Assembly (NCBI GenBank): GCA_902514645.1
Contig: CABXRO010000005.1
Coordinates: forward strand, 1 to 60,692
DNA: 60,692 nt
Direction: 5' to 3'
Origin: an uncultured SAR86 cluster bacterium
Lineage (GTDB): Bacteria; Pseudomonadota; Gammaproteobacteria; Magnimaribacterales; AG-339-G14
Part shown: piece by piece, positions 43,428-52,220 of the stretch
Numbering within the stretch: position 1 is the first letter of the stretch
How the letters are laid out: every line of letters begins with the position of its first letter
The notes under the pieces: model-generated
What the model saw: only the letters and a program-made list of their open reading frames with translations
What the model was told of the DNA's origin: nothing
Database searches by the model: none
Translations under genes and position numbers: made by a program

Positions 43428-44567
43428 TCATATAAATTTATTTAAGCTTGGACTCTTATCTATTTCAGAGAATATATCCTCTTTGATAGGCGCATCTAAA
43501 GACTGAACTAGTTTTATGGCTTTTTTAGAACAATCTTTATCTAAATTGAATAATCTTTTTTTCAAAAAAGGAAAATTAAGTTCTTTTATTAAAAAATCAA
43601 TTAATGAAAAAACAATTATCTGCCTTGAAATTACAGTCATGATAAGAGAAATTAATTCTTCTTTTGAAAAAATTTCTATAGATTTTGAAAATTTGTTTAA
43701 TAACTTTTTCACTGAAACTGAGTTTACAATCATATTTTGTGTAACTTCGAACAGTTTTTCTCTTGAATGGTTGTTCAATAGCTCAGAGATTTTTGAAGAG
43801 TCAATTAGTGAGCCATGCGTATAACTGCCATTCTTTATAACCCATTGGGATATTCCAATTTCACAATTTCTAACTATTACATTGTAAGTATTGGATAATC
43901 TTAATTTTTTCCAGAATCTAAAAAAATTCTTATCTTTCGTGATCTTATTTGAAAAACTTAGTGCATAAGAAGCGTAATGAAAGTTCTTACTTTTTAAATT
44001 GAATTTAAATTTAGTTTTTAATTTTTCTCTTTTAGTAGGTATTCGTGGTCTTTCCAACCCATAATGTGAAGTAGCCCCAACGAAGTCTAGTTTTGATTCT
44101 TGAATAAAATTTACAAAATCATTGCCCTTGGTCACAGGAAACCATGTTGAATCATTCATGAGGATTAAATTTTCTAGCATTGTAAGTTTTTCCCTTAAAA
44201 AGATGATCCCATCGCGCCATCCACCAAAGTCATAGCCATAGTTTTCTCTTTCGATTAAGAAGCTGCTTTTATTTTTTATTTTTTCTTGATCTTCTTTTTT
44301 AAGCTTTATGTTTGATACTACGATTGGAGAATATCCTCTATTTAGAAAATAATTGAGAGTTCTTAAATGAAACTCATTCAAACCATTTGTTGGGAAAATT
44401 ACATAGATTAATATTTTTGCCTTTAAAGAAATACTTCCTGAATAAATCTTTTTTTTATTAGAAAGAAAAAAATCATAAAAGTAAGTACTAAAAAGGTATC
44501 CAAAAATATTAAATGGAAGGAAAAAAAATTGTTTGAATATCCTTTTAATCTCTCTCAAAAACTTCAT
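43428..44567 (-). CDS. RgpF-like polysaccharide (rhamnan) synthesis protein
   Basis: A 379-aa protein resembling the rhamnan-synthesis F family of glycan-assembly proteins. Hallmarks are ERENYGYDFGGWRDGIIFL and ENLILMNDSTWFPVTKG, followed by FVGATSHYGLERPR. An N-terminal hydrophobic stretch (FFFLPFNIFGYLFSTYFYDFFL) may anchor it to the membrane. Members act in assembly of rhamnose-rich surface polysaccharides, probably as glycosyltransferases. It marks the start of the surface-polysaccharide region and has very AT-rich codon use. The 92 bases downstream hold nothing recognisable. Confidence 0.8.
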   Translation of the reverse strand: MKFLREIKRIFKQFFFLPFNIFGYLFSTYFYDFFLSNKKKIYSGSISLKAKILIYVIFPTNGLNEFHLRTLNYFLNRGYSPIVVSNIKLKKEDQEKIKNKSSFLIERENYGYDFGGWRDGIIFLREKLTMLENLILMNDSTWFPVTKGNDFVNFIQESKLDFVGATSHYGLERPRIPTKREKLKTKFKFNLKSKNFHYASYALSFSNKITKDKNFFRFWKKLRLSNTYNVIVRNCEIGISQWVIKNGSYTHGSLIDSSKISELLNNHSREKLFEVTQNMIVNSVSVKKLLNKFSKSIEIFSKEELISLIMTVISRQIIVFSLIDFLIKELNFPFLKKRLFNLDKDCSKKAIKLVQSLDAPIKEDIFSEIDKSPSLNKFI

Positions 44568-44583
44568 TGTTCAGATTAAAAAA

Positions 44584-45132
44584 TTAAAAACTCCTTTCAA
44601 CTTTTACCAAAATTATCAAATCTGGTTTATCTTGGCTTTCTGCCAGCAATGATGGTGCTTCATTAAGTTTATCATCTAAGTGTCCGATATAATGGACTTC
44701 AGAAAAAGTTCTGTTTAAAAAAGGTCTTATCCTATCAGTAAACGAATCTCCTATAACCCAGACTTTTTTATTTGAGGCTGGATTTGAGTTAACAACAATT
44801 TCTTGCTTGCCAAATGGGGTTGCATTTTCTCGGGGAAGAGAAACCCAACCAAAAACCAATGTAGCAATCAAAACGACAATAAGTGCAGGAAAAATTCTTC
44901 TTATTCGGCGTTGGAAGAAATTAATTAGGCTAAATTGTTTTCTATCTAAACTTTCAAAAATATGGCTGGTTATCAAAAAACCACTTATTACAAAAAAAAT
45001 ATCTACCCCGACAAAGCCTCCTTCAAATAAATTAGGAAAGGCATGAAATGCAATCACCGATAAAACAGCAAATGCACGTAGTCCGTCTATTTCAGAACGA
45101 TAATCTTGAGTTTGCATTGTTTCTGCTTTCAA
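44584..45132 (-). pseudogene. Deleted acyltransferase-3 / AlgX-type SGNH chimera
   Basis: A 182-aa ORF whose first about 100 residues are the start of an OafA/YrhL-type membrane O-acyltransferase (YRSEIDGLRAFAVLSVIAFH, GGFVGVDIFFVISGFLIT, RRIRRIFPALIVVL) but whose last about 75 residues are the C-terminal part of an AlgX/AlgJ-like SGNH domain (KKVWVIGDSFTDRIRPFL, PDLIILVKVERSF). Acyltransferase-3 proteins have about ten membrane helices and 350-650 residues; here only two or three helices remain. The simplest reading is an in-frame deletion that fused two formerly separate genes for polysaccharide O-acetylation. The product is probably non-functional, though the SGNH piece is uninterrupted. 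Confidence 0.7.
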
Positions 45133-45203
45133 ATCATCTAAAAAATAATTAAAAAATAAAATCTTTGAAGATAACTTATTATAAATAAATTAGAATAATT
45201 AAA

Positions 45204-46352
45204 ATGCAAATAAAAGATGAATTGAAAGAAGTTTTTAGAGTTGTTGCTTCTGAAATTCCTGATCCAAAAGATTGGATTCATTATCTCAAACCATCAATTG
45301 ATAAAAATTGGTATACAAACTTTGGTCCAGTTAATGAAGATTTTGAAGAACGTATTAAAAATAAATATTGTGAAAAAAATGAAGTTGCAATTACTGCTTC
45401 AAGCGCTACGTCTGCGTTGAGTGCTTGTTTAATTTCTGAAGGCATCTCTGGTGAAGTACTGTGTCCAGGTTTTACATTTCAAGCAACAGCTTCGTCAATA
45501 TTGGGAGCAAACTGTAATCCGATAATAATTGATGTAGACAAAAATTCTGGAGTCGTATCTCCTCAGATTTTAAAGGAAGGTTTTTTAAATTCTAAAGCCA
45601 AGGCTGCCATTTTACTTGCGCCTTATGGAATCTCTGTTGATTTCCATGAGCATGAAAAAATTTGTCATGAAATGGAGAAAATATTAATCATAGATAACGC
45701 TGCGGGTCTTGGAATAAAAAGGGAATCTAAGTTTTTCAGTGGGAGTTATGAAAATGTAATAGAAGTATTTTCTTTACATGCTACCAAACCCTTTGGAATC
45801 GGTGAGGGAGGATTGATAATTGCCCCTTCCTCAAAAGAATTTTCTATAAGGTCGGCAATGAATTTTGGATTACAGACGCACGCCAATACAGGAAGTACTT
45901 CTTCTCCTTTTTGGGGTATTAATGGGAAAATGTCTGAATTTCATGCTGCAATAGGTCTAGCGGTTCTTGAAACAATAGATAAGAGAATATTCCAAAGACA
46001 AGAAATGGCAAAAAAATGGATAGATAGTCTTATAAATATTGATCTTAATCTTAATATTTTTACTCATGAAATTGATAATTCTCCTTGGCAAATCTTTCCC
46101 ATAGTTCTTGAATCTGAAAAAATAGTAGAAAAAGTTTTAAAAATTGCCTTAAAAAATAAATATGAACTTAGGAGATATTATTATCCTAGCCTAGGAAATT
46201 GTCATGGAATGAAAAGCATTGGTATGTGTGAAAATTCAAATAATCTTTCAGCAAGGGTATTAACTTTGCCTGTAAGGTCATGGATAAAAAAAAATGATCA
46301 AGAAAATTTAATTACAAGCATCATGGATATTCTTAAAGAAGGATATGGTTAA
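45204..46352 (+). CDS. DegT/DnrJ/EryC1/StrS-type sugar aminotransferase
   Basis: A 382-aa PLP enzyme. The substrate/cofactor segments are SSATSALSACLISEGI, CPGFTFQATASSILGANCNPI, IIDNAAGLG (Asp for the pyridine nitrogen) and SLHATKPFGIGEGG, with the PLP lysine. These enzymes transaminate nucleotide-linked keto-sugars for surface glycans. A PglD/NeuD-like acetyltransferase lies 3 kb downstream on the other strand and could acetylate the amino sugar formed. Followed after 52 bases by the GT2 gene on the same strand. Confidence 0.87.
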   Translation: MQIKDELKEVFRVVASEIPDPKDWIHYLKPSIDKNWYTNFGPVNEDFEERIKNKYCEKNEVAITASSATSALSACLISEGISGEVLCPGFTFQATASSILGANCNPIIIDVDKNSGVVSPQILKEGFLNSKAKAAILLAPYGISVDFHEHEKICHEMEKILIIDNAAGLGIKRESKFFSGSYENVIEVFSLHATKPFGIGEGGLIIAPSSKEFSIRSAMNFGLQTHANTGSTSSPFWGINGKMSEFHAAIGLAVLETIDKRIFQRQEMAKKWIDSLINIDLNLNIFTHEIDNSPWQIFPIVLESEKIVEKVLKIALKNKYELRRYYYPSLGNCHGMKSIGMCENSNNLSARVLTLPVRSWIKKNDQENLITSIMDILKEGYG

Positions 46353-46404
46353 AATAGTGGTAGTCTCTTCAGTAGTTTTTAATTAAAAAATCTAATATTT
46401 CTAT

Positions 46405-47301
46405 ATGAACGAACCCCTGAGAAATAAAATCTTTTCTGATGAAGAAATAAAGATTTCAATATGTTGTATCACTTATAACCATGAAAAGTTTATTGAAAAA
46501 TGCATAGAAGGTTTTTTAGAGCAAGAATGTAATTTCAGAGTTGAAATTATAATTTATGATGATGCTTCAACTGATCAAACTTCAAAGATAGTTAAACAAT
46601 TTGCCGAAAAATATCCCTCCATAATTCAACCAATTTTTTCAGAAAAAAATCAATTCTCTCTCGGTGTAAATCCTTATTATGCTTATGTTTTTCCAAAGGC
46701 GAGAGGAAAATACATAGCAATCTGTGATGGTGACGATTTTTGGAGTGATAAAAGAAAATTGTCAATCCAGTATGAAGAACTAGATAGAGATCCTAATCTA
46801 GTTATAACTTACGGTAGAACAAGAGCAATCAAGGCTGATAAGGTAATAGAAAATTTTAAATCGGGAGCGGAGAAAAATTTAACTTCTGAAGATCTTATGT
46901 TGGGGGTGGGAATAAATACTCTAACAACTTGCTTTAGAAATGTTTTTAAAGATAAAAAGCCACCTAAATTTCTTCGAAATTCTCCGATCGGTGATATAAC
47001 TGTTTGGGGCATACTTGGATATTATGGATATGGAAAATTTTTACCTAACTTAAAAAAAACAAATTATAGAATACACGAAGATGGAATTCTGTCTTTGGTA
47101 AATAAAGAAAAAGCAAATTTAATGACAGCATTAGCTCAACTTAGTCTAGCTGCCTATCATTATGAAAATGGTAAAATTAACGAATCACAGAAATGTATTG
47201 TTCGCGTTCCAAAGTATTTAAACGTAATTAAAAAAATATACCTATTTAATCTAGGTTATTTGAGGCCTTTTAGAAGTATTATTAGACTTTTCCAAAAATA
47301 G
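46405..47301 (+). CDS. Family 2 glycosyltransferase
   Basis: A 298-aa GT-A fold enzyme. The nucleotide-binding start is ISICCITYNHEKFIEKCIEGFL, IIYDDASTDQTSKIV is the first acidic motif, and YIAICDGDDFWSDKRKL holds the DxD-like metal site. RIHEDGILS is the usual C-terminal contact. The tail ends in basic residues (KKIYLFNLGYLRPFRSIIRLFQK), which may bind the membrane. Transfers a sugar to a glycan or lipid carrier; donor and acceptor unknown. Confidence 0.88.
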   Translation: MNEPLRNKIFSDEEIKISICCITYNHEKFIEKCIEGFLEQECNFRVEIIIYDDASTDQTSKIVKQFAEKYPSIIQPIFSEKNQFSLGVNPYYAYVFPKARGKYIAICDGDDFWSDKRKLSIQYEELDRDPNLVITYGRTRAIKADKVIENFKSGAEKNLTSEDLMLGVGINTLTTCFRNVFKDKKPPKFLRNSPIGDITVWGILGYYGYGKFLPNLKKTNYRIHEDGILSLVNKEKANLMTALAQLSLAAYHYENGKINESQKCIVRVPKYLNVIKKIYLFNLGYLRPFRSIIRLFQK

Positions 47302-47376
47302 CTTCAGGTTCATATCTTTTCAGTTTAATATTTAAAAAACTATATCTTCTTATTGAAGTCATAAAAAATATTTAAT

Positions 47377-48486
47377 TTAATCGCAATATAAAATCGTTTC
47401 TCCACCGAAGCCGGTAGTACAATCTAAGTAAAACTTATAGTCATCTCTTATTCGATTTATCAGTTCAGGAATGACTATAAAATCATCCTTTAAATGATAA
47501 ATACTTATAGCAAGCTTAGGCTTAAATTTTCTTATTGTCTTTTCTGCTCCTTTTAAAGCATCTCTCTCAGCTCCTTCTATATCCATCTTTATGAAATCTA
47601 TTATAGAAATACCTTTTTTCTCAACAAAAGTATCAATTTTGATGGAAGATACTTTGAACTTAGTCTCATAATCTACAATTTTTGCGCCTGGACTAGGATC
47701 GGTCGTGTAAAAAAATCTATCATCTTGATCTGTAACTGCTTTGTGAACCTTTTCTATGTTTTTTACTTCTGGATTAATTAACATTTGTTGATCTAAGGCA
47801 TCAAAAGAATCTTGCAATATATCAAAAGCAAATAACTTTCCTCCGCTTTTGGAGCTGGATAAAGATGCTAAGTACATTGTAGTATCGCCCCAGCCAACTC
47901 CACAGTCTATAACGTTATCGCCGGATTTTACTGAAATAGATGTGCCTTTATTGTTATAAGCATAACATCTATTAGACTCAATCATATTCAGGATCTCAGG
48001 AGCAGTATATATTTTAAAATTTGTCTCATTAGGACTGATTTTTTTTAAAATCCACTTAAATACTTTCAAAGATTCTGTTGATGTTGTCAGTCTTTCAGAT
48101 GCGCTTTCATAATTGTTAATAAAATCACTTGTGAAAGAAGAAAGTTCAACTTTACTCTCTCCAAAATATCTAGAAATAAGAATCTCACAATATAAATTTT
48201 TTGAATAGTCATCTGATAATAAGTTATAAGTAGGTAAAAATTTCTTAAATTTATTTTCCAGGAAAGAAAGAGAAGATTTATTTTTTCTCAAATGAAAACT
48301 TAAAAAATTAGTAATTTTTTTTAGGATTGGGTTTCGATTTGCCTTGTTGAAAAGAATATCTTCTGAATTGTCTACTACATGTCTTGAATCTCGACCCCAA
48401 CTAAAATAGTCGGTATCAACTTCTCCATAATTTTTAGTTTTATTGACAATTTTTTTTAAGTGAGTTGCAAAGGCTTTGTCATTCAT
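47377..48486 (-). CDS. FkbM-family methyltransferase
   Basis: A 369-aa SAM-dependent methyltransferase. The SAM motif is NVIDCGVGWGDTTMYLASL, preceded by a long N-terminal helical extension (about 170 residues), and the FkbM C-terminal signature reads IDFIKMDIEGAERDALKGAEKTIRKFKPKLAISIYH. FkbM enzymes O-methylate sugars or polyketides; beside glycosyltransferases a sugar role is likely. The first 140 residues lack a recognisable domain. Confidence 0.85.
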   Translation of the reverse strand: MNDKAFATHLKKIVNKTKNYGEVDTDYFSWGRDSRHVVDNSEDILFNKANRNPILKKITNFLSFHLRKNKSSLSFLENKFKKFLPTYNLLSDDYSKNLYCEILISRYFGESKVELSSFTSDFINNYESASERLTTSTESLKVFKWILKKISPNETNFKIYTAPEILNMIESNRCYAYNNKGTSISVKSGDNVIDCGVGWGDTTMYLASLSSSKSGGKLFAFDILQDSFDALDQQMLINPEVKNIEKVHKAVTDQDDRFFYTTDPSPGAKIVDYETKFKVSSIKIDTFVEKKGISIIDFIKMDIEGAERDALKGAEKTIRKFKPKLAISIYHLKDDFIVIPELINRIRDDYKFYLDCTTGFGGETILYCD

Positions 48487-48578
48487 AAACTAATTGTAAT
48501 TTATTTTTATTAAGCTAAGGATAGCTAATTCATAAAATCCTTTTCAAGAAATTAGCAAGATATTTTAAGAAACTTTGA

Positions 48579-49238
48579 TTATAAGTATTTCTGGCCTAAC
48601 GTGTGATCTCTAACAAATTTTGCGGGTGTACCGAAATAAACTGAGTTAGATTTTGTATTTTTATTAACCATGCTGCCTGCACCAATAATACAGTTGTCTT
48701 CAATTGAAATGTTCTGAAGGATAGAGGCACTAATTCCAATCGCTGAAAATTCTCCAACCTTAACGTTTCCAGCCGTGACAGCATTTGGAGCCAAGCTTGA
48801 AAAATCTAATAGTTTATTATCGTGATCAACAGAACAATTTGTGTTTAAAATGCAATGATTTCCAATCTTTGATGAAGTGTTTATTGTTGCTCCTGCCATT
48901 ACTACATTTCCTTCTCCTAGTGATACATCGAAAGCAATTGATGACATAGGATGAATGCAGTTTATAAATTTAAACTCTTTGCGAAGCTTTTTTATTTTTT
49001 TTGCTAGAAGACTCCTAGAGTAATTATCCCCAATTGCAATAATTCCGCCAAAAATATCATGCTTTGACATTAAAACATTTAGGTCATCTTCATTACCAAG
49101 GACCTCATAACCTAAAATCTTTTTTCCTTTTTTTAAAGAATTATCTAAAAACCCTAAAATTTCGAATTTGTTTTCTTTTTTGATAATATCAATTACAACT
49201 TTGGCATGACCACCAGCACCTATAATTAAAATTTTCAT
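48579..49238 (-). CDS. PglD/NeuD-type sugar O/N-acetyltransferase
   Basis: A 219-aa protein of the left-handed beta-helix acetyltransferases. The N-terminal Rossmann-like domain is ILIIGAGGHAKVVIDII, followed by hexapeptide repeats (GNVVMAGATINTSSKIGNHCILN, VKVGEFSAIGISASILQNISIEDNCIIGAGSMV), with the catalytic His in NCSVDHDNKL and FGTPAKFVR at the end. These acetylate UDP-amino-sugars (PglD) or sialic acid (NeuD). It pairs logically with the DegT aminotransferase. The 92 bases between it and the FkbM gene show nothing recognisable. Confidence 0.85.
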   Translation of the reverse strand: MKILIIGAGGHAKVVIDIIKKENKFEILGFLDNSLKKGKKILGYEVLGNEDDLNVLMSKHDIFGGIIAIGDNYSRSLLAKKIKKLRKEFKFINCIHPMSSIAFDVSLGEGNVVMAGATINTSSKIGNHCILNTNCSVDHDNKLLDFSSLAPNAVTAGNVKVGEFSAIGISASILQNISIEDNCIIGAGSMVNKNTKSNSVYFGTPAKFVRDHTLGQKYL

Positions 49239-49268
49239 GTTAATTTTTTTTGATAATAATTAATTATT

Positions 49269-50033
49269 TTAAATTGAAATTTTTTTTGCAAGAGCATAAA
49301 AATCTCTTTCTGTAGAACCGATATCAATTATTTCGAAATTAGTATAAGCAAGTATTTCCTTCAATAATTTATTACTATACACGTGATGATGTAAACATCT
49401 ATTTTGAAAGTTAAGTAGACTTCTTTTTCTAAACTCTTCGAATGTTCTTACTCCAGGGTCAAGATCTATATCATGACAATCTAATATTTCCTGTAAATTA
49501 GATAAATCTGACTCGTCAAAATTATTTGTATAAGCGTTAAGGATAGTTTCAAACTTTGTATCTAATCTTTTATGATCAAAATTTGACTCTTTGCATGGAA
49601 CCACCAAAATTATTTTTCCATGATCCTTAAGAACTCTTCTCCACTCTAAAATAGCTTTTAGGGGATTAGCAGAATGTTCTAAGCAGTTTGATGATACGAG
49701 AAATTCATAATGGCCATCGCTTATTTTACTAAGATCGGTTGCTTCTGAAATATATTGATATCCTGGTGGCTTCTTTTTGTAAAAATTATAATTTTCTCCC
49801 TCCGAGATAGAGCCCTGCCAAATGGTATTATTGCTAAAATTCACTCCATCCAGCTTTTTTATAAATCTATAAACCGGAATTTCCTTGTGAAAAATTTTAC
49901 TGGGACCCCCTACTTCTATTCCACTTTTATTTTGTATAGCTTGTTTATACAGATCAAAGTTAGCGATATTTTTTATTAAAATATCTCTGTAAATTCTTAA
50001 CTCTTCGCGAAAATTTTTTATTAAGCTTTTCAT
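49269..50033 (-). CDS. Class I SAM methyltransferase of the polysaccharide region
   Basis: A 254-aa protein with QNKSGIEVGGPSKIF as the SAM-binding strand and turn, and FLVSSNCLEHSANPLKAILEWRRVLKDHGKIILVVP as the methyltransferase-11 motif with post-motif helix. KESNFDHKRLDTKFE follows. Its position beside the PglD-like gene and the kinase fusion suggests a glycan or glycolipid head-group target. Substrate unknown. Confidence 0.78.
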   Translation of the reverse strand: MKSLIKNFREELRIYRDILIKNIANFDLYKQAIQNKSGIEVGGPSKIFHKEIPVYRFIKKLDGVNFSNNTIWQGSISEGENYNFYKKKPPGYQYISEATDLSKISDGHYEFLVSSNCLEHSANPLKAILEWRRVLKDHGKIILVVPCKESNFDHKRLDTKFETILNAYTNNFDESDLSNLQEILDCHDIDLDPGVRTFEEFRKRSLLNFQNRCLHHHVYSNKLLKEILAYTNFEIIDIGSTERDFYALAKKISI

Positions 50034-50099: not shown

Positions 50100-52220
50100 T
50101 CAATGGGGAAAACCTGCTGATACTTTACTTGTTTCTTTAAAGTTAAATTCCTGATAACCGGTTTTTAGTTTTTCTATATAAACAACTTCGCCGGTTATAT
50201 TTATAACCGGTGAGTTTTTTGTATCTATGATCTTTCCTCTTATATCAAAAATTTTTTGACTTGGATTGCTTTTAAAATGAGCATTTTTTTCACTAGACCA
50301 AATAGCCTCAATAATTGTTTCTTCTTTCTCAATGACAAAACAAAATAGGTTTTTCTTTCGTAACAATTTTTTAGTTTTACCGCCTGTAAGTAATGCGACT
50401 AAGAACTTAAAGCAATAGTAAGCATCTCGTTTAATTATTTTTCCATTAAGATTATTAATAAGGCCATAGCCTGGTGCAATCAATTGGTGCCAATAACACT
50501 TTTTTACTTTTCCAGAGGCTAACATTAAGAGAAAATAACGAACTAGGTAACTTGACTGAAGAGATTCCTCTATTAAGAAGTTTTTTGCAGGAGCCCAAGG
50601 TGCCATATTGGCTAAGGGCCAATTAACTTCAGTAATGTATATGTTATTTGATGTTTTAACACTTGCATCAGCCAAAGCAGCATATGTCCTAATTTTTGCT
50701 AAAGTGTCGAATCCAAACTGTAAGTTTTCTGGATTTCCTCTTCGGTCAACATAAAGCTGGGTTGCAACCCCATCATAAAATATAGACTTGAAATGAAAGA
50801 CTGACCTAGCAAAGAAAGGAACATCGAAATCAATAATATTGCTCCCCAGCAGCTTTATTTTTGTAAATTTATTTTTTTTTAGATCATATGCAACTTTAAA
50901 AAATGAAAAGTATTCATCGACGGATAAAAATGCCCATTTTTTTCGGTTTATTGAATTTCCTATTTGGAATTCGCTAACAAAACCTTCAAGCCTACTAAAA
51001 ATAAAGTCTAATCTTTGTTTCAATAAATCTAAATTACAAATATGCTCCCTGTCTTGTAACAGGCAAACTAAAACATTTTTATTATGAAGTTGTTCGATGA
51101 AATTGAAATATTTTTCAATATTACTGAAATCGGATAAAGGTATTCTGACTAAAATATTATCGATAGATAGTTCTTCTATCATTTCGATAAGTTCATCATT
51201 GTTTATTAATTTTTGCGATTCAATTGGCTTATCGATGTTGACGCACAAACCAAAGCTATCAATTTTGTTCCCATATGCCTTGCTATTTTTTAAATAAAAA
51301 ATAGGAATCATCAATAATGCATAAAAAGTGGCTAATAAGATTTTTATATTTGAGTACCATGTTAAAAGATAAATTTTTATTTTAAGACGCCTATTATTTA
51401 TTGCATGTGGCTGATTAGAGTGGTGATCCCAAGCGTAAATTGAATATGGGATTCTTTTTTTACCTTGGAAAAGATTTTTTAAAAAACTTTTAAGCTTTAA
51501 CCTTTGTTCGTCACGGTTTGCAGACTTTATGAGATATTTGTAGGAATTTGAAAAAGGAATAGAGGTTTTATTTGCATACTCATCGGCAAGAATTTTAAAA
51601 ATTTCTGAATTCTTACTTATTCGAGCTAGATTTTTTACACCTGTTTTTGGCTTAACGATACCTTTATAAAATCTGTTTAGGTCTACTAGGTAGAAATCAT
51701 ATCCTTTTTTCGTTCTCTTAATACATACATTCCCTACCACATAATCAAGATGCATTAGATTTTTTTTATGCATCATATATGTGAAGTCAATAAAACTTTT
51801 AAGAATACTTTTATAGTCTGTTACTTTTTTTTCTGTTGCAAAATCAAGAGTGAAGTCATATTCAATTTTACGAGATATGTAATAACTCTGAAGAAGTCTA
51901 AATTTATCGAACACTTCAATATAACCGAGCGGCTCTGGGGTTTTGATCCCATTTTTATTCAAAAGGAATGAATACTCATACGATCGTCTTGCTTTACTTT
52001 TTCTAAAGAACTTGTAAATGACTCCTTGTATAAAGTTTGGAGTCTTGAACGATTTCGTAACTGTTTCTATTTCGCCGAGGCGTAAAACTTTTACGACGTT
52101 TCTGTCATTTTTTAGAATATTTTGATCTCGGTCAAATTCCTTTTCAAAAACTTCAAGAGAAAAACCATTTGGGAAGATATCTCTGGCATAGTGAGCGTTT
52201 TTGGACTTTTCTGTTTTCAA
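50100..52220 (-). CDS. WaaP/InaA-like kinase fused to glycoside-hydrolase-like domain
   Basis: A 706-aa single ORF with three parts. Residues about 40-250 resemble lipopolysaccharide kinases: invariant-lysine region VVKVLRLGEIETVTKSFKTP, catalytic loop MHLDYVVGNVCIK (His157, Asp159, Asn164) and the metal-binding VDLNRF (Asp180). Residues about 293-311 form one hydrophobic segment (ILLATFYALLMIPIFYL). Residues about 320-610 look like a TIM-barrel glycosidase, with FQIGNSINRKKWAF where an acid/base motif would be and IYITEVNWPL (Glu531) as likely nucleophile; a short beta domain ends the protein. The kinase would act on LPS core or another cell-surface sugar. The joint architecture is unusual; activity of the second domain is uncertain because the expected NE pair reads NS. 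Confidence 0.7.
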   Translation of the reverse strand: MKTEKSKNAHYARDIFPNGFSLEVFEKEFDRDQNILKNDRNVVKVLRLGEIETVTKSFKTPNFIQGVIYKFFRKSKARRSYEYSFLLNKNGIKTPEPLGYIEVFDKFRLLQSYYISRKIEYDFTLDFATEKKVTDYKSILKSFIDFTYMMHKKNLMHLDYVVGNVCIKRTKKGYDFYLVDLNRFYKGIVKPKTGVKNLARISKNSEIFKILADEYANKTSIPFSNSYKYLIKSANRDEQRLKLKSFLKNLFQGKKRIPYSIYAWDHHSNQPHAINNRRLKIKIYLLTWYSNIKILLATFYALLMIPIFYLKNSKAYGNKIDSFGLCVNIDKPIESQKLINNDELIEMIEELSIDNILVRIPLSDFSNIEKYFNFIEQLHNKNVLVCLLQDREHICNLDLLKQRLDFIFSRLEGFVSEFQIGNSINRKKWAFLSVDEYFSFFKVAYDLKKNKFTKIKLLGSNIIDFDVPFFARSVFHFKSIFYDGVATQLYVDRRGNPENLQFGFDTLAKIRTYAALADASVKTSNNIYITEVNWPLANMAPWAPAKNFLIEESLQSSYLVRYFLLMLASGKVKKCYWHQLIAPGYGLINNLNGKIIKRDAYYCFKFLVALLTGGKTKKLLRKKNLFCFVIEKEETIIEAIWSSEKNAHFKSNPSQKIFDIRGKIIDTKNSPVINITGEVVYIEKLKTGYQEFNFKETSKVSAGFPH

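Follow-up and report, generated by a model that had tools for sequence, protein, structure and literature searches.

The fusion gene and its conservation

The window analysed here is the whole stretch of 60,692 nucleotides of DNA from an uncultured SAR86 cluster bacterium, whose genome is assembled in 36 contigs (0.94 Mb, 70% complete). On its reverse strand lies an open frame of 706 codons (window 50100..52220 (-), stop included) with a TTG start, which aligns with the ATG starts of the orthologues. The frame and its full-length SAR86 orthologues delineate a protein of 706 amino acids made up of an N-terminal kinase, a hydrophobic segment, a predicted degenerate GH39-like barrel and a C-terminal beta-rich part. 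A preliminary description of this DNA had reported an uninterrupted 706-codon frame with several motifs, and every one of them was found in frame: HLDYVVGN at residues 157-164, VDLNRF at 179-184, FQIGNSINRKKW at 418-429 and IYITEVNWPL at 527-536.

Six other SAR86 genomes (G002, G018, G021, G024, G027 and G030) carry orthologues whose parts come in the same order and which are 64-69% identical to the window protein, and the 706-codon fusion is therefore not a product of chance. Five of these are full length, and the copy in G030 is truncated by the end of its contig. Among 199 genomes of the SAR86 order, seven carry the fusion, the window genome counted; an eighth match there is a kinase-only protein. 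Ratios of dN/dS (NG86, close SAR86 pairs) were 0.12-0.16 for the kinase part and the barrel part alike, and both halves of the fusion are under purifying selection. A misassembly or the accidental joining of two genes by read-through might be suspected in a genome of 36 contigs and 70% completeness, but the conserved orthologues refute it: the seven carriers span two genera and hold the gene in one frame without stops, with purifying selection on both halves, so that the likelihood of an artefact is practically nil. In the four carriers checked (G000, G002, G018 and G027) the fusion is the sole PF06293 protein found, and no PF06293 protein was found in two SAR86 genomes without the fusion.

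The kinase half

Residues 1-258 (51447..52220 (-)) were annotated as a Kdo/WaaP-family kinase domain based on a Pfam match to PF06293 (E 4.2e-5, 23.5 bits against a gathering threshold of 21.3), 35% identity to a separate kinase (L077:8462-9202) and conserved catalytic motifs (K56, E82, H157-L-D159, N164 and D180-L-N-R183). The match lies above the cut-off and bears out the WaaP-like kinase that had been proposed for this half. Judged by its sequence, the half belongs to the Kdo/WaaP family, with its catalytic motifs intact. Within NCBIfam, the window protein missed the cut-off of the KdkA equivalog NF002475 (23 against 142 bits) and gave no match to RfaP (NF011703).

An alignment of the SAR86 kinases with the split-gene and reverse-fusion kinases described below shows H151, D159, N164, D180 and R183 to be invariant, and H157 is invariant within the SAR86 orthologues. 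By spacing, not by structure, residues were assigned to those of P. aeruginosa WaaP: H157 to H161, D159 to D163, N164 to H168, D180 to D188 and R183 to R191. K56 and E82 were assigned to K51 and E78 by position only. WaaP is essential in P. aeruginosa; K51, E78, the HRD motif, H168, D188 and R191 have been probed in it by mutation, and H168 is required for function (PMC6147952). The window kinase resembles WaaP/RfaP, which phosphorylates heptose(I) of the LPS inner core, and the Kdo kinase KdkA, both of PF06293, in its family by Pfam, its HxD motif, its DFG-equivalent Asp, its Lys-Glu pair and its Arg at the position of WaaP R191. It differs from both in having HLD for HRD and Asn for H168, in falling into a separate clade and in its fused GH39-like barrel, and it scores far below the NCBIfam cut-off for KdkA.

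The barrel half and its relatives

Residues ~318-616 (50373..51269 (-)) were assigned to a GH39-like (beta/alpha) barrel using the comparison of a family profile with a GH39-type protein and a residue census of 93 barrels. The barrel has its acid/base position at S423 and its nucleophile position at E531, and N425-R426, W429, D464-F465, R493, W534 and W577 are conserved. Behind it lies a C-terminal beta-rich part, residues ~617-706 (50103..50372 (-)), recognised from alignment and from predicted strands in models of low to moderate confidence. This part is present in SAR86 and partly in the reverse fusions and one further relative (L041), and it is absent from the aligned stand-alone barrels.

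For the barrel half (residues ~318-700), sequence searches of Pfam, NCBIfam and PDB gave no match, and Pfam PF01229 was matched neither by the 11 members scanned nor by the split barrels. A profile of the SAR86 barrels was searched through the class, with two further orders sampled (109 and 63 genomes). The search found stand-alone barrels of ~350-390 residues, one protein of 545 residues, and barrel-kinase proteins of 742-811 residues in which the order is reversed, with the barrel first and a PF06293 kinase second. Stand-alone barrels occur in 54 of the 109 genomes of one order. In the other order, 37 of the 63 genomes have barrel-kinase matches. Of these matches, 34 are at or near full length; the remainder are a fragmented gene (G1074), a kinase and a barrel in separate genes (G1059) and a barrel that stands alone (G1068). 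In the reverse-fusion gene of G1074 (L124, 4544-6767), stop codons separate a barrel, a middle and a kinase fragment, and this is possibly a decaying or frameshifted copy. Across 399 genomes of the phylum the members found are gammaproteobacterial only, and no relatives were found on viral contigs or plasmids. A match in G013 (L012) was rejected as a chance match that overlaps two other genes. The 545-residue protein (L041:5278-6915, in G118) is a barrel with an extra N-terminal part of ~130 residues to which no family was assigned, and its gene directly follows one for an O-antigen ligase.

With hhalign, the profile of all 93 barrels matched the GH39-type reference L166 at a probability of 96% (E 3.9e-9) over 235 columns, and the catalytic positions of the two line up. 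L166 itself matches PF01229 at E 5e-10, and its PDB relatives are beta-xylosidases and PslG. The decoys compared with the barrel profile (the TIM barrels ThiG, IMPDH and GH113, and a shuffled control) all stayed below 1%. The seven-sequence profile of the SAR86 barrels alone misses GH39 (1.2%), and the assignment therefore rests on the wider family. GH113 was considered as an identity for the barrel on account of weak Pfam matches (best E 0.012), and failed in the profile comparison (0.1-0.5%). AlphaFold models of the window protein, made from four-sequence alignments, had mean pLDDT of 38 and 51.5. In the better of these, an AF2 model from 4 rows, the initial strands alternate with helices (pLDDT about 57-87), and the best Foldseek matches of this low-confidence model in the PDB are nearly all glycoside hydrolases, at TM <=0.27, a weak indication of the fold. 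A glycosidase-like second half had been proposed for the protein, and the profile match agrees with it; by this comparison, the barrel family is judged homologous to GH39-type glycosidases.

Pairing of kinase and barrel

The preliminary description had suggested looking for the two halves as adjacent separate genes in relatives, and such a pair exists in G1059 with two glycosyltransferase genes between its members. On one strand of contig C84 lie genes for a Wzy_C O-antigen ligase, a Kdo/WaaP kinase, a GT2, a GT9 heptosyltransferase-family protein and the barrel, and a further GT9 gene adjoins the cluster on the other strand. The G1059 assembly is fragmented and 77% complete; the linkage of kinase and barrel lies within one contig. 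The kinase (L077:8462-9202) is 35% and the barrel 39% identical to the respective halves of the window protein.

In a tree of kinase domains, the partner kinases of SAR86, G1059 and the reverse fusions form one clade (bootstrap/SH-aLRT 98/93) that excludes 27 other PF06293-type domains. The majority of these 27 come from genomes that also hold partner kinases or from relatives of those genomes, and the remainder come from elsewhere in the SAR86 order. Since the domains were excised with a profile built from the partner kinases, the tree might be biased towards uniting these, although the comparison kinases had been found by a separate Pfam search or by previous searches with the fusion protein. 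The kinases of SAR86 and G1059 group together at 100/97, and the barrel tree likewise joins SAR86 with G1059 and G1068 (SH-aLRT 91). As the domain orders are opposite, kinase and barrel must have been joined on at least two occasions. These fusions, together with the one gene cluster, show that the pairing of kinase and barrel is real and recurrent.

The barrel also occurs by itself. Genomes with stand-alone barrels lack a close partner kinase, their other kinases scoring 25-71 bits against 246 in G1059. In 27 of the 50 cases with enough sequence (e.g. L035, L036, L037, L040 and L080-L084), trmB lies directly upstream of the stand-alone barrel on the same strand, sometimes in the order thiG-trmB-barrel. 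The absence of a partner and this neighbourhood mean that the barrel also has a function independent of the kinase. They also count against an LPS kinase reading, since about half of the stand-alone barrels adjoin trmB and not LPS genes.

The fusion had been described as part of a polysaccharide locus. Glycan genes do lie beside it at window 43428-50033, and encode an RgpF-like protein, a DegT aminotransferase, a GT2, an FkbM methyltransferase, a PglD-like acyltransferase and a methyltransferase. However, this stretch is a variable island: it is absent from the syntenic place in G002 (L094), where an ECH gene directly adjoins the fusion, and the conserved neighbours of the SAR86 fusion are not LPS genes. 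An LPS or glycan context is nevertheless independently supported by the split cluster of G1059. Within the island, a frame of 182 amino acids at window 44584-45132 (-) has the first ~100 residues of acyltransferase-3 (PF01757) followed by another tail, and resembles an OatA-like gene that has been truncated or has lost an internal part.

A kinase that acts not on LPS but on another lipid-linked or soluble sugar or on a protein, with the barrel as an adaptor for that target, would fit the non-LPS surroundings of the SAR86 fusion, the weak SAR86 match to PF06293 (23.5 bits, where the reverse-fusion kinases reach 42-56) and the separate clade of the partner kinases. It would also fit the Asn164 that by position replaces H168, the residue needed for WaaP function (PMC6147952). 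We consider it rather unlikely: the invariant R183 matches the R191 of WaaP-type kinases, and the G1059 cluster is LPS-core-like.

Catalytic positions of the barrel

In the census of 93 barrels, a few of which may be truncated copies of one gene, the acid/base position holds Ser in 7 of 7 SAR86 sequences, Ala in 53 stand-alone or split barrels, and Thr in 32 (31 reverse fusions and the fragment L124). Glu was found there in none of the barrels scored. As the preliminary description had noted, the window protein reads NS instead of NE, with S423 at this position. Ordinary hydrolysis is therefore unlikely, and the glycan cleavage that had been suggested for the barrel is not supported in its ordinary form; the other option then raised, a sugar-binding or differently catalytic domain, is favoured. 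The nucleophile position holds Glu in 7 of 7 SAR86 sequences and in the 53 stand-alone or split barrels. The 31 reverse fusions have lost it, with Ala, Tyr or Asn in its place. They have thus lost both catalytic Glu residues with the kinase still attached, which indicates that the two parts stay paired even where no glycosidase active site is left.

Nonetheless, the nucleophile Glu is kept in every kinase-barrel and every stand-alone or split sequence scored, and this conservation exceeds what pure binding needs. A barrel that hydrolyses with the help of another residue or an external acid, trimming a glycan while the kinase phosphorylates it, comes near to what the preliminary description had proposed and would account for a nucleophile kept in two of three lineages. 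We regard this as very unlikely, given that the acid/base Glu is missing from all scored members and the nucleophile from the reverse fusions. Alternatively, in SAR86 and the stand-alone lineage the barrel might still be an enzyme of another kind, a putative retaining transglycosidase that uses donors whose leaving group needs no protonation and builds the glycan that the kinase phosphorylates. A nucleophile Glu combined with Ala or Ser at the acid/base position is the arrangement of engineered glycoligases, and it is what the 7 SAR86 and 53 stand-alone or split barrels have, along with conserved active-site-like W, N, R and D residues. We judge this unlikely, as all reverse fusions have lost the nucleophile yet keep the pairing with the kinase, and neither donor nor acceptor has been identified. 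We know of no glycosyltransferase activity in GH39. An extended version of this idea, a natural glycoligase-like pair, appears distinctly unlikely: barrels derived from GH39 and lacking the acid/base would transfer a sugar from an activated donor in LPS or glycan assembly and would have been repeatedly fused to the WaaP-like kinase clade that phosphorylates the same glycan, and the barrel of the reverse fusion would then have decayed to a binding module.

The junction between the domains

The junction (51270..51446 (-)) was delineated by alignment with the N-terminal start of the stand-alone barrels and by hydropathy, and contains the motif W264-D-x2-S-x-Q-P and the hydrophobic segment (~292-310). 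The stand-alone barrels start with the motif W-D-x-x-S-x-Q-P and a segment of varying hydrophobicity, and both are found at residues 264-310 of the window protein, so the SAR86 fusion consists of a whole kinase and a whole barrel protein. The hydropathy of the segment (Kyte-Doolittle over 19 residues) is 2.07 in the window protein and 0.9-1.9 in the SAR86 orthologues, and most of the stand-alone relatives listed stay under 1.7. In the reverse fusions sampled, barrel and kinase are joined without any hydrophobic segment. The single membrane helix of a membrane-bound protein that had been claimed here agrees with the strongly hydrophobic segment in the window, but the segment is weakly conserved and lacks a counterpart between the domains of the sampled reverse fusions. 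The drop in hydropathy in orthologues and stand-alone relatives means that a true transmembrane span is not established. The sampled reverse fusions, without such a segment, suggest that the barrel and the ATP-dependent kinase probably sit in one compartment, which we infer to be the cytoplasm. A periplasmic barrel is possible in SAR86.

Proposed function

The loss of the acid/base in the relatives, the fusion in opposite orders and the separate genes beside LPS genes together suggest that the probable role of the barrel is to hold the sugar substrate for the kinase. The explanation we prefer, to which we give about an even chance, is an LPS-core-type sugar kinase whose barrel, derived from GH39 and no longer hydrolytic, recognises the glycan acceptor. 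The N-terminal Kdo/WaaP-family domain would transfer phosphate from ATP to a sugar of nascent LPS or another lipid-linked glycan. The C-terminal half would descend from a retaining glycosidase of the GH39 type and would not hydrolyse by the normal route; most likely it would bind the growing core oligosaccharide at the inner membrane, and present it to the kinase or check its completeness. Glycan binding by the barrel, the LPS core as substrate and a cytoplasmic position of both domains are inferences.

Comparison with known systems

The preliminary description had suggested that the architecture is not a standard one, and Pfam and NCBIfam indeed hold no named kinase-barrel family. A literature search for kinase-glycosidase fusions found nothing relevant, and no separate glycan-recognition partner of WaaP-type kinases was described in the literature searched. 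The architecture and the barrel family are unnamed, and combine known kinds in a new way. They represent a gammaproteobacterial family derived from glycosidases, lacking the acid/base, which is tied to a specific clade of LPS-type kinases by two fusions in opposite order and one gene cluster. The barrel is a testable candidate for how an LPS-type kinase might recognise its acceptor.

The barrel resembles GH39 enzymes (PslG, PDB 4ZN2 and 5BX9; beta-xylosidases) in profile similarity over 235 columns, in catalytic register and, in SAR86, in its nucleophile Glu. The catalytic pair of PslG is Glu165 and Glu276, and the spacing of the two positions is 108 residues in the window protein compared with 111 in PslG (PMC11912335). 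In GH39 glycosidases the acid/base Glu sits on strand 4, in an NE motif, and the nucleophile Glu on strand 7. Unlike them, the barrel family has Ser, Ala or Thr for the acid/base Glu, has no Pfam GH39 match, and has a kinase fused to it or paired with it.

Kdo/WaaP kinase domains also occur in tandem, two or three to a protein, in proteins encoded a few kb from the reverse fusion (L044:10851-13088 and L045:10902-13127). These are likewise multi-domain PF06293 proteins and share their genomes with the reverse fusion, but their extra modules are kinases and not a glycosidase-like barrel.
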